Source: Adlercreutzia sp. ZJ473
Lineage (GTDB): Bacteria; Actinomycetota; Coriobacteriia; Coriobacteriales; Eggerthellaceae
Reading direction: 5' to 3'
Length of the DNA: 37,722 bases
Assembly: GCF_013185065.1 (NCBI RefSeq)
Contig: NZ_JAAVTO010000024.1
Span: 1 to 37,722, forward strand
Every line of letters begins with the position of its first letter. The stretch's first letter is position 1. The notes beneath the pieces are model-generated. The model was not told the DNA's origin. It did no database searches and saw only the letters and a list, made by a program, of their open reading frames with translations. A program made the translations under genes and the position numbers. Of this stretch, positions 3,941 through 27,128 are shown one piece after another.

Positions 3941-3980
3941 AAAAAATGGCGAAGCTCCACAAAAGAGCTTCGCCATTATA
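3941..3980 (-). terminator. Intrinsic terminator overlapping a putative symporter promoter
   Basis: On the minus strand a perfect 13-bp stem (arms 3965-3977 and 3945-3957, 7-nt loop) is followed by six T residues, which would stop transcripts arriving from leuA. The outer end of the 5' arm contains TATAAT (3980-3975), a good -10 box for a promoter starting near 3968, inside the hairpin. Transcripts from that promoter would lack the 5' arm and escape termination. No good -35 is visible, so the promoter half is inference. Confidence 0.7.
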
Positions 3981-4055: not shown

Positions 4056-4209
4056 AAGTCAGCGAGGGTTCTTGCGGTGCCTGAGATAGCCCCGCCGCAG
4101 GGCCAAGTGGGCTCCGCCCACGCCGAGCCCTGCACAAGGGGCTAGGTCAGGCACCGCAAGAAGCCGCAGCGTCGAGCAGTTCCGTTCGTCCCGTCAGGGC
4201 GAACGGAAC
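4056..4209 (-). ncRNA. Structured repeat element, copy A (two hairpins, conserved linkers)
   Basis: Lies 4 bp after the leuA stop. In minus-strand order it has: a hairpin with arms 4200-4209/4179-4188 plus an inner CCC/GGG helix closing a TGAC tetraloop; a 4-nt spacer; CGACGCTGCGG (4174-4164); a long rod with 16-bp outer arms (4162-4147 and 4084-4069) and three further nested helices; and CCCTCGCTGACTT (4068-4056), followed by a short T-run. Copy B at 26149-26295 repeats the unpaired segments exactly but has different, still complementary arms. RNA versus DNA function is not known. It could simply be a terminator for leuA, but conservation of the linkers argues for more. Confidence 0.6.
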
Positions 4210-25046: not shown

Positions 25047-25211
25047 TTGGCAGAAATCTTCAGATGTTTGTCATTTCGTGGTGCCCTGACGCGCTTTCGC
25101 GACTTTGTCGAAAAAGCTGACCTGCGGTTTTACCCCGATGCGCTCCTGCGTTCGCCCGCAAATGACCCATGGGGGCTCATGGGGAGACAAATATCTGAAG
25201 ATTTCTGCCAA
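25047..25211. repeat. 165-bp element bounded by 26-bp inverted repeats
   Basis: Left arm 25047-25072 and right arm 25186-25211 are inverted copies with a single mismatch, beginning TTGGCAGAAATC. The 113 bp between them carries no ORF of note. The arms are AT-richer than the surroundings. A short ATT flanks both ends if the arm is taken from TGGCAG. It could be a miniature inverted-repeat transposable element or a two-site operator for the carbonic anhydrase gene. Confidence 0.6.
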
Positions 25212-25263: not shown

Positions 25264-25345
25264 GCGCACTGCGGGCACGACCCCTACCGCACGCTCACGA
25301 GCAGGCGCACCGCGGGCATAGCCTCTACCGCACGCTCACGAGCAG
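25264..25345. repeat. Two 41-bp tandem repeats across the hydrolase stop codon
   Basis: Units 25264-25304 and 25305-25345 differ at only a few positions and end in the identical CTCACGAGCAG. The second unit contains the last codons (LLVSVR) and stop of the MBL gene; the first is a downstream duplicate of them. Confidence 0.75.
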
Positions 25346-26128
25346 GTGCTGAGCCGCGCAGGCCACGCGCGCCGAGTGCTCGGCCTGCGCGAGCGCACCG
25401 GTCAGCGCGCGGGCGGCCAGAGACGGCAGGTTGTTGTTCTCGGACAGGTGCATGCCCACCACCTGCTCGAGTCGCGGGGAGAGCAGGCTTAGGAGCGCGT
25501 CGGCCGCCTGCGCGTTGGAGAGGTGCCCCCGGTCGGAGGCCACGCGCTGCTTGAGCGCCCACGGGTAGGGCCCCTCGCGCAGCATGCGCTCGTCGTGGTT
25601 GCTCTCGAGCGCCAGCATGCGCACCTCGCGCAGGGCGTCGCGCACCTCGTCGGTGAGGACCCCCGTGTCGGTCACGTACCCGAGCGCGTCGCCGTCTGCG
25701 TCCTCGAAGCGGAAGCCGCACGAGGCGGCCGCGTCATGCGAGGTGTGGAAGGGGTGCACGCCGACGGGCCCGATGCCGAAGGACGCGCCGCAGCGCATGT
25801 CGCGCACGTCGCAGGCGCCCTCGACCTTGGCTATCTCGGCGCTCGCCGCGCGCACGGGGCCGAGCGCGTACACGGGCGGCACGGCGGCGGCGCGCGCCTT
25901 CGCCAAGCCCCGCGTCGCCACGCCGAGGCCCTTCACGTGGTCGGCGTGGTCGTGGGTAATGAGGATGGCGTCGAGGCGCGCTAGGTCGAACCCCGCCGCC
26001 GCGGCGCGCGCGAACAGGTCGCGCTTGCAGATGCCGCAGTCGACGAGCACGCCGCGCCCCGTGGAGGCATCCTCCACGATGGCCGCGTTGCCCTTCGACC
26101 CGCTCGCCAGAACATGCAGCAGCAACAA
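25325..26128 (-). CDS. WalJ/YycJ-type metallo-beta-lactamase-fold hydrolase
   Basis: 267 residues. Signature order: LASGSKGNA near the start, DCGI, the metal motif THDHADH near residue 60, HTSHD, TDTG, ESNHD and the C-terminal HLSENNN, which is typical of the YycJ/WalJ (VicX) subgroup, thought to act as a nuclease linked to DNA repair or cell-wall regulation. I prefer the TTG at 26128: AGGTGAT, a close match to the 16S 3' end, sits just upstream. The GTG at 26137 lies inside that ribosome site. No WalK/WalR genes are nearby. Confidence 0.88.
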   Translation of the reverse strand: MLLLHVLASGSKGNAAIVEDASTGRGVLVDCGICKRDLFARAAAAGFDLARLDAILITHDHADHVKGLGVATRGLAKARAAAVPPVYALGPVRAASAEIAKVEGACDVRDMRCGASFGIGPVGVHPFHTSHDAAASCGFRFEDADGDALGYVTDTGVLTDEVRDALREVRMLALESNHDERMLREGPYPWALKQRVASDRGHLSNAQAADALLSLLSPRLEQVVGMHLSENNNLPSLAARALTGALAQAEHSARVACAAQHLLVSVR

Positions 26129-26148
26129 GGAAATCACCTTTCGAATAC

Positions 26149-26295
26149 AAGTCAGCGAGGGAGGGCCTGGTCGCCCATATGCCGCGAAAGCCTGAGGAAG
26201 CGTACTGGGTACGTGACGAAGGCTTGGAGCGAGCAGATGGGCGACCAGGCCCTCCCGCAGCGTCGGCTCATGCGCTGTTGCGTCAGCAACAGCGC
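26149..26295 (-). ncRNA. Structured repeat element, copy B (two hairpins, conserved linkers)
   Basis: Lies 2 bp after the nucleoside phosphorylase stop. Minus-strand order: hairpin with 10-bp arms (26295-26286 and 26281-26272) closing a TGAC tetraloop; 6-nt spacer; CGACGCTGCGG (26265-26255); rod hairpin with 20-bp outer arms (26256-26237 and 26178-26159), an inner AAGCCT/AGGCTT helix and a CGTAC/GTACG tip; tail CCCTCGCTGACTT (26161-26149). Linker, tail and tetraloop equal those of copy A while every stem differs. The tail ends about 20 nt before the MBL gene start, so it also forms part of that gene's leader. Confidence 0.6.
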
Positions 26296-26297
26296 AC

Positions 26298-27128
26298 CTA
26301 GAGGCGCTCCACGATAGCCGTGACCAGGCGGCAGAAGTCGGCCTCGCGGCTCTTCGCCACCTCGAACACCTCTTGGTCGGAGGGGCTCGCGCCCTCCACG
26401 CCGCACGCCATGTTTGACACGAGCGACATGCCGAGAACGCGCATCCCCACGTGCCGCGCCGCGATGACCTCCTCGCACACGCTCATGGCCACCGTGTCGG
26501 CGCCCCAGGTGCGAAACGCGCGGATCTCGGCGGGCGTCTCGAAGCTCGGGCCCAGAAGCCCCAGGTAGACGCCTTCCTGCACGCGCACGCCGAGCTCGTC
26601 GGCCGCCTCGTGCGCCAGCGCGCGCAGGGCGGGGTCGTAGGCGTCCTTCATGGAGAAGAAGCGGAAGGCCACCTCGTCAGGCTCGGTTCCCGCCACGGGG
26701 TTGCGCCCCGTGAAGTTGATGTGGTCGCCCATGATGCAGAAGTCGCCCACCTCGTAGCCCGCGTTGATGGCGCCAGCGGCGTTCGTGGTGATGAGGGTGT
26801 CCACGCCGAGCTCGTGCATGAGCCACACCGGGTAGGCCACCTCCTGCGCCGTGTTGCCCTCGTAGCCGTGCAGGCGCCCCTGCATGCAGATGACCTCGCG
26901 CCCGCCGAGCGTGCCCACCACGAAGCGGCCCACGTGGCCCGTGGCCGTCGAGCGCTTCATGTGCGGCACCTCGCCGAACGGGATGAAGAGCGCGTCGGCG
27001 ATCTGCTCGGCCAGAAGGCCGAGCCCCGACCCCAAGATGACGCCCACCTTCGGCGCGCGCTCCCCCATGCGCTCGCGCATCTGCGCGCTCGACTCCGCCA
27101 AGCGCTCCCTCAACGTGCCCTCAGCCAT
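26298..27128 (-). CDS. Purine nucleoside phosphorylase (trimeric PNP type)
   Basis: Cleaves purine nucleosides with phosphate to free base and ribose-1-phosphate; cytosolic salvage enzyme. 276 residues with GVILGSGLG (phosphate loop), GRLHGYEGN (His at the active site), TNAAGAIN, and the base-binding stretch FETPAEIR...GADTVAMS followed by SLVSNMACG, whose Asn marks the 6-oxopurine (inosine/guanosine) type. ATG at 27128 with AAAGGAG upstream. It lies 121 bp after the acyl-CoA ligase. Immediately after its stop comes structured element B. Confidence 0.94.
   Translation of the reverse strand: MAEGTLRERLAESSAQMRERMGERAPKVGVILGSGLGLLAEQIADALFIPFGEVPHMKRSTATGHVGRFVVGTLGGREVICMQGRLHGYEGNTAQEVAYPVWLMHELGVDTLITTNAAGAINAGYEVGDFCIMGDHINFTGRNPVAGTEPDEVAFRFFSMKDAYDPALRALAHEAADELGVRVQEGVYLGLLGPSFETPAEIRAFRTWGADTVAMSVCEEVIAARHVGMRVLGMSLVSNMACGVEGASPSDQEVFEVAKSREADFCRLVTAIVERL

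Follow-up and report, generated by a model that had tools for sequence, protein, structure and literature searches.

The YPAL or RU-2 elements of Yersinia lie close to stop codons, and so do attC sites, which stand behind them, are conserved in structure, end in inverted core sites (RYYYAAC and GTTRRRY) and are recombined by a tyrosine integrase as a folded bottom strand. The passages on YPAL in PMC2229807 describe a small structured insertion of ~168 bp with internal inverted repeats that gives target duplications of 3-26 bp, has targets adjoining dyad symmetry, is carried on upstream transcripts and has empty and filled sites between relatives, and a table in the same paper gives TA at both termini together with target duplications for ERIC, NEMIS and RUP. 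For REP and BIME elements the part of PMC3733652 that treats them describes palindromic units of 20-40 bp that carry a terminal unpaired GTAG or CGTC tag and many of which form pairs of opposite orientation; the GTAG REPs are tied to RAYTs and often supply a TAG stop, and the CGTC REPs are presented there as having no known dedicated transposase. In E. coli, REPs within 15 nt of stop codons are reported, in the portion of PMC12306157 that concerns them, to be translational brakes at which ribosomes stall.

The element at the phosphorylase junction

The window, the whole stretch of 37,722 nucleotides of Adlercreutzia sp. ZJ473 DNA that was analysed, holds one copy of a structured element behind leuA (copy A) and one behind the gene for a purine-nucleoside phosphorylase, PNP (copy B), and copy B belongs to a dispersed family of structured, non-coding repeats in the Coriobacteriia. 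Its host gene, PNP, is on the minus strand at 26298..27128 with the stop codon at 26298-26300, and the next gene, in the same direction, encodes an MBL-fold hydrolase (25325..26137, minus strand). The core, or rod, of copy B occupies 26151..26265 and is given here on the plus strand, antisense to both genes, because the plus strand is the one whose fold is conserved in the family. At its ends stand two invariant motifs, GTCAGCGAG at 26151..26159 and GCAGCGTCG at 26257..26265 on the plus strand, which read CTCGCTGAC and CGACGCTGC respectively on the gene strand, along which the core runs from CGACGCTGC to CTCGCTGAC. Between the PNP stop codon and the core there is a separable module, hairpin 1 (26271..26296), with an 11-bp stem and a loop that reads GTCA on the plus strand; the order on the gene strand is the PNP stop codon, one base, hairpin 1, five bases, the core (26265-26151) and then AAAGGTGAT of the MBL hydrolase. 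PNP and LeuA matched NCBIfam models above their cut-offs and the hydrolase matched MBL-fold models at sub-threshold scores only.

From the core end there are 13 nt to the GTG start at 26137 that is given in the open reading frame listing, but a TTG start (near 26125-26128, and perhaps near 26128) seems likelier from the SD-like AAAGGTGAT, and it agrees with the first-pass annotation, in which the copy ended about 20 nt before the hydrolase start. The 20-bp rod stem which that annotation had noted is indeed there, as an outer stem that forms a perfect 20-bp duplex, and the fold has a z-score of -8.7 on the gene strand and -10.8 on the opposite strand, with none of 200 shuffles equally stable on either. 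Copy B is not typical of the family, in that the two sides of its outer stem match perfectly and either strand folds well. A second inverted repeat is found at 25047-25211, with arms of 26 nt that are 96% complementary and spaced 113 nt apart; the arm sequence recurs in the same layout on another contig (L012, contig C64) and in the same place in a congener (L330), so the repeat probably represents a second dispersed palindrome family.

The core of copy A, of the same family and in the same orientation to its gene, lies behind leuA at 4058..4174 on the plus strand, with a hairpin 1 of the GTTCCG...CGGAAC type at 4179..4209. The native intrinsic terminator of leuA (3941..3977, minus strand) is 3' of copy A and is common to the congener G002; at the leuA site G002 has a stop-side half-copy only and the congener G001 has no copy. 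In the genome G005 the place 3' of leuA (L365) carries a hairpin with the palindrome AAAGGGGACAGTCCCCTTT, which we take to be a widespread sequence, possibly REP-like, and G005 has a Y1_Tnp match.

Across the family a core of 115-118 nt, its ends invariant or nearly so, usually has the ~30-nt hairpin before it and often a tail of 15 nt, GTTACGAACGACCTG, behind it; GTTAC directly follows the core in 32 of 82 copies. The fold is kept by compensatory change. In an alignment of 101 copies from several genera, which was fitted to a covariance model and so leans towards that model, 95.3% of the cells at 43 pairs are standard pairs, double changes occur at 38 of the 43 and the covariation score is 0.640, compared with 0.176 when shuffled (0 of 500 shuffles as high) and at most 0.125 when slid. 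Unfitted alignments of 18 copies gave scores of 0.492 and 0.526, with their shuffles at 0.186 and 0.203.

Several copies depart from this layout. The tail is tandemly repeated 3' of L017, L031 and L403, and copies L049, L051, L052, L465, L468 and L470 have an extra structured arm of ~66 nt at the internal loop of the core, which is near-identical from site to site and some of whose carriers are in G002. The GTTCCG...CGGAAC hairpin is found at 10 places in the source genome, two of them nested in others, and all adjoin elements except one on contig C40; the idea that hairpin 1 is a host terminator serving as a target was rejected, as this sequence occurs almost solely at elements. There are exceptions to the pairing of hairpin and rod: L047 and L053 have other hairpins, the PNP hairpin of G002 stands without a rod, and six copies in the taxonomic family f4 have a rod without hairpin 1. 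At the rpL30 site (L047, G000:C30:54904-55075) hairpin 1 is made of the last L30 codons and an inverted copy of them, is absent in the congener and looks like a product of snap-back or template-switch synthesis. At the gpsA site (L050, which is the same as L022) parts of one arm recur in the opposite arm and in hairpin 1, a pattern that template switching would leave.

Spread, copying and turnover of the family

An end-to-end pattern, GTCAGCGAG-N(85-114)-GCAGCGTCG, was found at 18 exact places in the source genome (G000) and the reversed pattern, used as a control, at none, so the family is not a product of chance; the core is 115-118 nt long at all 18. Together with the sequence itself and the fold against shuffles, these counts confirm that a structured element is present, as had been noted at first, and the family is genome-wide and order-wide, beyond what was seen then. 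A covariance model built from the 18 exact-pattern copies matched 31 places in the source genome at E <= 0.1, ~25 of them strongly, as well as 67 in G001, whose assembly is 85% complete, and 25 in G002, and it had matches in 18 of the 41 genomes examined. In an even sample of the order, where at most 11 candidates per genome were scored by the model, 107 of 247 genomes had matches, namely 51 of the 65 in the source's own family (f1), 47 genomes of f10, which we would guess to be mainly Collinsella, and nine of f4; nine chosen genomes had between 16 and 42 matches apiece. When the phylum was sampled evenly, eight of 246 genomes had matches, all eight inside the order and none outside it. A search for named hits yielded at least 27 model matches (80 of 119 pattern stretches were scored), the remaining pattern hits among those 80 looking like chance. 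Hits confirmed by the model are in Adlercreutzia, Gordonibacter, Paraeggerthella, Enteroscipio, Enterorhabdus, candidate Rubneribacter and Aphodovivens and other Eggerthellaceae, and one Atopobiaceae MAG matched at 52 bits.

Rfam had no match in the whole window, and at seven loci searched with a relaxed threshold the element had matches below the gathering score only, which at copy A were to microRNA hairpins. The L31-Coriobacteria ribosomal leader (RF03128) was matched weakly twice 3' of the element at L051 (~1858-1920), once at 34.0 bits, where the gathering score is 33, and once below it, at 28.3. In viral sequences a loose end pattern matched 120 stretches, with no covariance-model match among the 80 listed, a tighter end pattern matched none, and blastn of one copy against phages and plasmids gave no match; carriage by phages or plasmids was rejected on these results. 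The open-access full-text literature on Eggerthella, Collinsella and Coriobacteria, a scope to which most subscription papers do not belong, held no description of the family and it has apparently not been described previously, with the possibility that an unnamed entry for it is among the thousands of candidate RNAs that, according to a passage of PMC8040213, are catalogued there.

The position of the element relative to genes was surveyed in 78 copies from G000, G001 and G002 (84 loci, less two that were set aside and four in which no core was recognised), the upstream coding sequence being called by codon-position GC. It is sense in 70 of the 78 copies and some of the other eight were misread: L047 (L30) and L056 (omega subunit) are both sense, and L432 and L437 are tandem copies. 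The stop codon lies 30-40 nt before the core in 57 of the 70 sense copies and 16-18 nt before it, that is in the loop of hairpin 1, in seven, the other six being outliers; in the six f4 copies it was placed by eye ~2-9 nt before the core, and two G001 copies (L426 and L453) stand behind a terminator, not a stop codon. The gene that follows runs the same way in 49 copies and is convergent in 29 (n = 78), and several copies lie within operons. Host genes in the source genome, named by eye, are housekeeping genes with no common theme.

Core identity was compared among 81 parsed cores of the 84. Cores at unrelated genes were found to be 98.3% (L032 and L034) and 97.4% (L033 and L035) identical, and in the GAPDH slot the cores of G000 and G001 are 48% alike next to genes that are 88% alike; the low identities of L052/L422 and L037/L465 are partly due to the extra arm. 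The outer stem and the apical arm reassort between copies. Their identities have a correlation of 0.10 over 5050 pairs. Outer stems are at least 90% alike in 89 pairs, and 43 of these have apical arms that are at most 60% alike; apical arms are alike in 93 pairs, and 49 of these have unlike outer stems.

At the PNP site of G002, where the protein is 93% identical, a relative of hairpin 1 is joined directly to the hydrolase leader with no rod; the junction reads ...GCGCATGA-TG-GTATTCGAAAGG there and ...GCGCATGA-(core and two bases each side)-GTATTCGAAAGG in the source genome, and so clean a junction could be insertion or precise loss. Of 21 further source-genome sites sought in G002, 20 were found, and among the aligned sites listed there are full copies at greA and PGDH, remnants at GAPDH, argB, ABC-F and desulfoferrodoxin, and empty sites at RlmH, nagB, sufB, FtsX-like, moeA and L30. 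The source frame of nagB now ends in the hairpin loop and the empty site has its own stop, and the greA slot is kept in three congeners. As RlmH is occupied in G001 too, G002 has probably lost its copy; most gains are without polarity and several of the differences are deletion losses. No consistent target-site duplication was seen by eye, with a possible 6-7-nt repeat at nagB (L042) and none at other sites. The first-pass annotation had taken an empty site with clean ends in close strains as the sign of mobility, and here the picture is mixed, with the PNP site of G002 keeping its hairpin without the rod and sites elsewhere being fully empty, decayed or filled by another copy. Its broader suggestion of a mobile or general element in place of gene-specific control is supported, as the hosts are unrelated housekeeping genes, presence differs between congeners and near-identical copies stand at unrelated loci.

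The folded strand and its possible meaning

In this family the conserved fold belongs to the complement of the host mRNA. An A.C mismatch on the gene strand is a G.U pair on the other. In the alignment fitted to the model, a model that leans towards the gene strand, that strand has 111 A.C mismatches against 61 G.U pairs; in the raw register of 58 copies the counts are 107 and 26. Two adjacent positions of the outer helix pair on the antisense strand in 100 of the 101 copies, in most of them as a tandem U.G/G.U, compared with 16 of the 101 on the gene strand. The antisense fold is the more stable in 91 of 101 copies, by a mean of 9.5 kcal/mol. When only the core is folded, the antisense strand is again the better one in 64 of 81 copies and, for copies of other genera and families, in 26 of 28; the consensus fold energies are -67.6 kcal/mol for the antisense and -51.8 kcal/mol for the gene strand. 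The sign is unchanged with DNA parameters (74 of 81 and 26 of 28), so that RNA and single-stranded DNA are not distinguished. On the antisense strand the commonest apical loops are of UUCG type and the four-base loops of hairpin 1 are GNNA in 52 of 65; hairpin 1 has no strand preference (12 vs 9) and the bias is weak for the outer helix when the source genome is taken by itself (11 vs 14).

The best explanation, to which we would give a probability of about one half, is that the repeat is not autonomous and is spread in trans in the form of a folded antisense single strand, and we infer that its hosts feel only a passive, REP-like effect. The form recognised would be the antisense strand, single-stranded and folded, as RNA or as ssDNA; some enzyme acting in trans would recognise it by the ends GTCAGCGAG and GCAGCGTCG and copy it to further places in the genome, the hairpin-1 end being set next to the stop codon. 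The copies would then recombine with one another and decay by deletion. The weaker sense fold would ride passively in the host mRNA, in a 3' UTR or between the genes of an operon, where it may affect stability or terminating ribosomes as REPs do in E. coli. No transposase, reverse transcriptase or integrase has been linked to the family, Y1_Tnp being the only enzyme family tested; Y1_Tnp (PF01797) is absent from G000, G001 (85% complete) and G002, with their 31, 67 and 25 model matches, and mobilisation by RAYT/IS200 was rejected for this genus on that absence. Copies from one genus, moreover, are not independent of each other. Rather doubtful, and put forward tentatively, is a protein-less mobile element derived from RNA: a small structured antisense RNA would be turned into DNA in trans, its 3' end (hairpin 1) set precisely behind stop codons, and every genome would then carry tens of RNA-born copies with shuffled arms. 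Copies truncated so that mostly the stop-codon side is left (L058, L060, partials near L432, L437 and L535, and leuA in G002) would fit target-primed reverse transcription, but L404, which keeps the other half, does not.

A role on the mRNA strand has to be weighed against what lies 3' of the element. At leuA and GAPDH a canonical terminator stands 3' of the element and is also there in a congener with only a remnant, and a similar terminator follows the element at the sufB site. Strict intrinsic terminators within 300 nt downstream were found for 13 of 82 copies, with five in antisense, a shuffled expectation of 2.7 and two upstream, and a looser scan gave 17 downstream, seven in antisense and three upstream. 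Where an intrinsic terminator has a U tract directly behind its GC-rich hairpin, the core runs to its CTGAC end and then mostly to GTTAC, and the next eight nt after it contain only two Ts in 45 of 82 copies and five or six in four of the 82; in copy A TTTTT stands nine bases past the stem. Termination was rejected as the main role given the native terminators at leuA and GAPDH and the 13 of 82 copies with a strict terminator downstream. The earlier proposal that copy B is the 3' end, terminator or protector of the PNP message is likewise not supported as its primary role, since the selected strand is the complementary one and native terminators lie 3' at leuA and GAPDH; RNase III cutting and mRNA protection are possible as putative side effects.

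It would seem unlikely that the element is a functional 3'-UTR element which blocks exonucleases, is cut by RNase III or stalls terminating ribosomes and is kept by selection. The strict sense orientation behind stop codons, often inside the 15-nt ribosome-stall distance that the portion of PMC12306157 on E. coli REPs gives, would suit such a role, as would the slots that are kept across species and the sense strand of copy B, which still folds at -97 kcal/mol. However, the conserved fold is on the other strand, the mRNA strand loses at least one of the two adjacent pairs in 85 of 101 copies, turnover and swapping are rapid, and sister genes without the element retain their terminator (leuA, GAPDH).

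The conserved antisense fold, the UUCG-type and GNNA loops and the tandem U.G/G.U pairs are what would be expected if the copies were genes for antisense non-coding RNAs, each an RNA of ~115-170 nt convergent to the upstream gene with a regulatory or protein-binding role. We consider this quite unlikely, as ~13-25 nt from the core to the next co-directional gene leave little promoter room at copy B, no promoter motif was recognised by eye, and 0 to 67 copies per genome together with rapid turnover would be odd for a regulator. Very improbable is a palindrome that acts at the DNA level with no functional single strand, its stems being matched by quasipalindrome (template-switch) correction and gene conversion; arm reassortment, the template-switch-like duplications in L022/L050 and the L047 (L30) hairpin, in which the second arm repeats the last part of the coding sequence, could all be read in this way, but a strand-symmetric process should not yield an excess of G.U pairs on one strand (107 vs 26, raw register) or a conserved tandem wobble, and the unpaired ends are near-invariant across families. 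Finally, an attC-like site, with its bottom strand folded and recombined by a tyrosine integrase, is barely credible in spite of the place behind stop codons, the single orientation, a structure more conserved than the sequence and the better fold of the opposite strand, as the ends CGACGCTGC and CTCGCTGAC are not inverted R boxes, nor inverted repeats of each other, and have a direct CGCTG in common, and the copies are dispersed over housekeeping loci with no cassette arrays.

If spread as a folded antisense strand is the true explanation, a large family of small folded repeats that shapes many gene ends has so far escaped description in common gut bacteria, among them Adlercreutzia, Gordonibacter, Paraeggerthella, Enteroscipio and their relatives. 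The family would then be a natural system in which to test by what means a repeat without a protein locates stop codons, holds to one orientation and keeps its fold on the strand that is not the message, and it would caution against taking a perfect hairpin behind a gene for an mRNA 3'-end signal before the folding strand has been checked.

Comparison with known repeat systems

By the tests made the family is not a REP, not an intrinsic terminator, not an attC site and, with no match at a gathering score, not an Rfam family; in behaviour it is closest to the YPAL and REP elements. With ERIC, NEMIS and RUP, in the terms in which the table and passages of PMC2229807 describe them, it has in common a non-coding length of 100-200 bp, stable long stem-loops and non-autonomous spread, but neither terminal TA nor a consistent target duplication was seen in it. 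The likeness to the REPs that brake translation, as that part of PMC12306157 presents them, is a stable hairpin a few nt past the stop codon, whereas the better and conserved fold of the family is off the mRNA strand.

REPs in general are likewise multicopy palindromes mostly 3' of genes, and hairpin 1 supplies the stop in some copies of the family. In contrast to REPs the family has a core of 115-118 nt, one orientation and no Y1_Tnp in its richest genomes, that is, no associated RAYT; GCAGCGTCG does contain CGTC, yet this lies inside a 9-nt invariant motif without the published stem-tail format.

The likeness to YPAL, taken from its description in the passages of PMC2229807, is that of a structured insertion with inverted repeats, targets at dyad symmetry and carriage on upstream transcripts, and filled and empty sites between close relatives are found in this family also. 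It differs from YPAL in lineage and perhaps in target duplication, of which no consistent case was seen by eye, and furthermore it is near-fixed in position and orientation to the stop codon, its arms reassort and its conserved fold is on the antisense strand.
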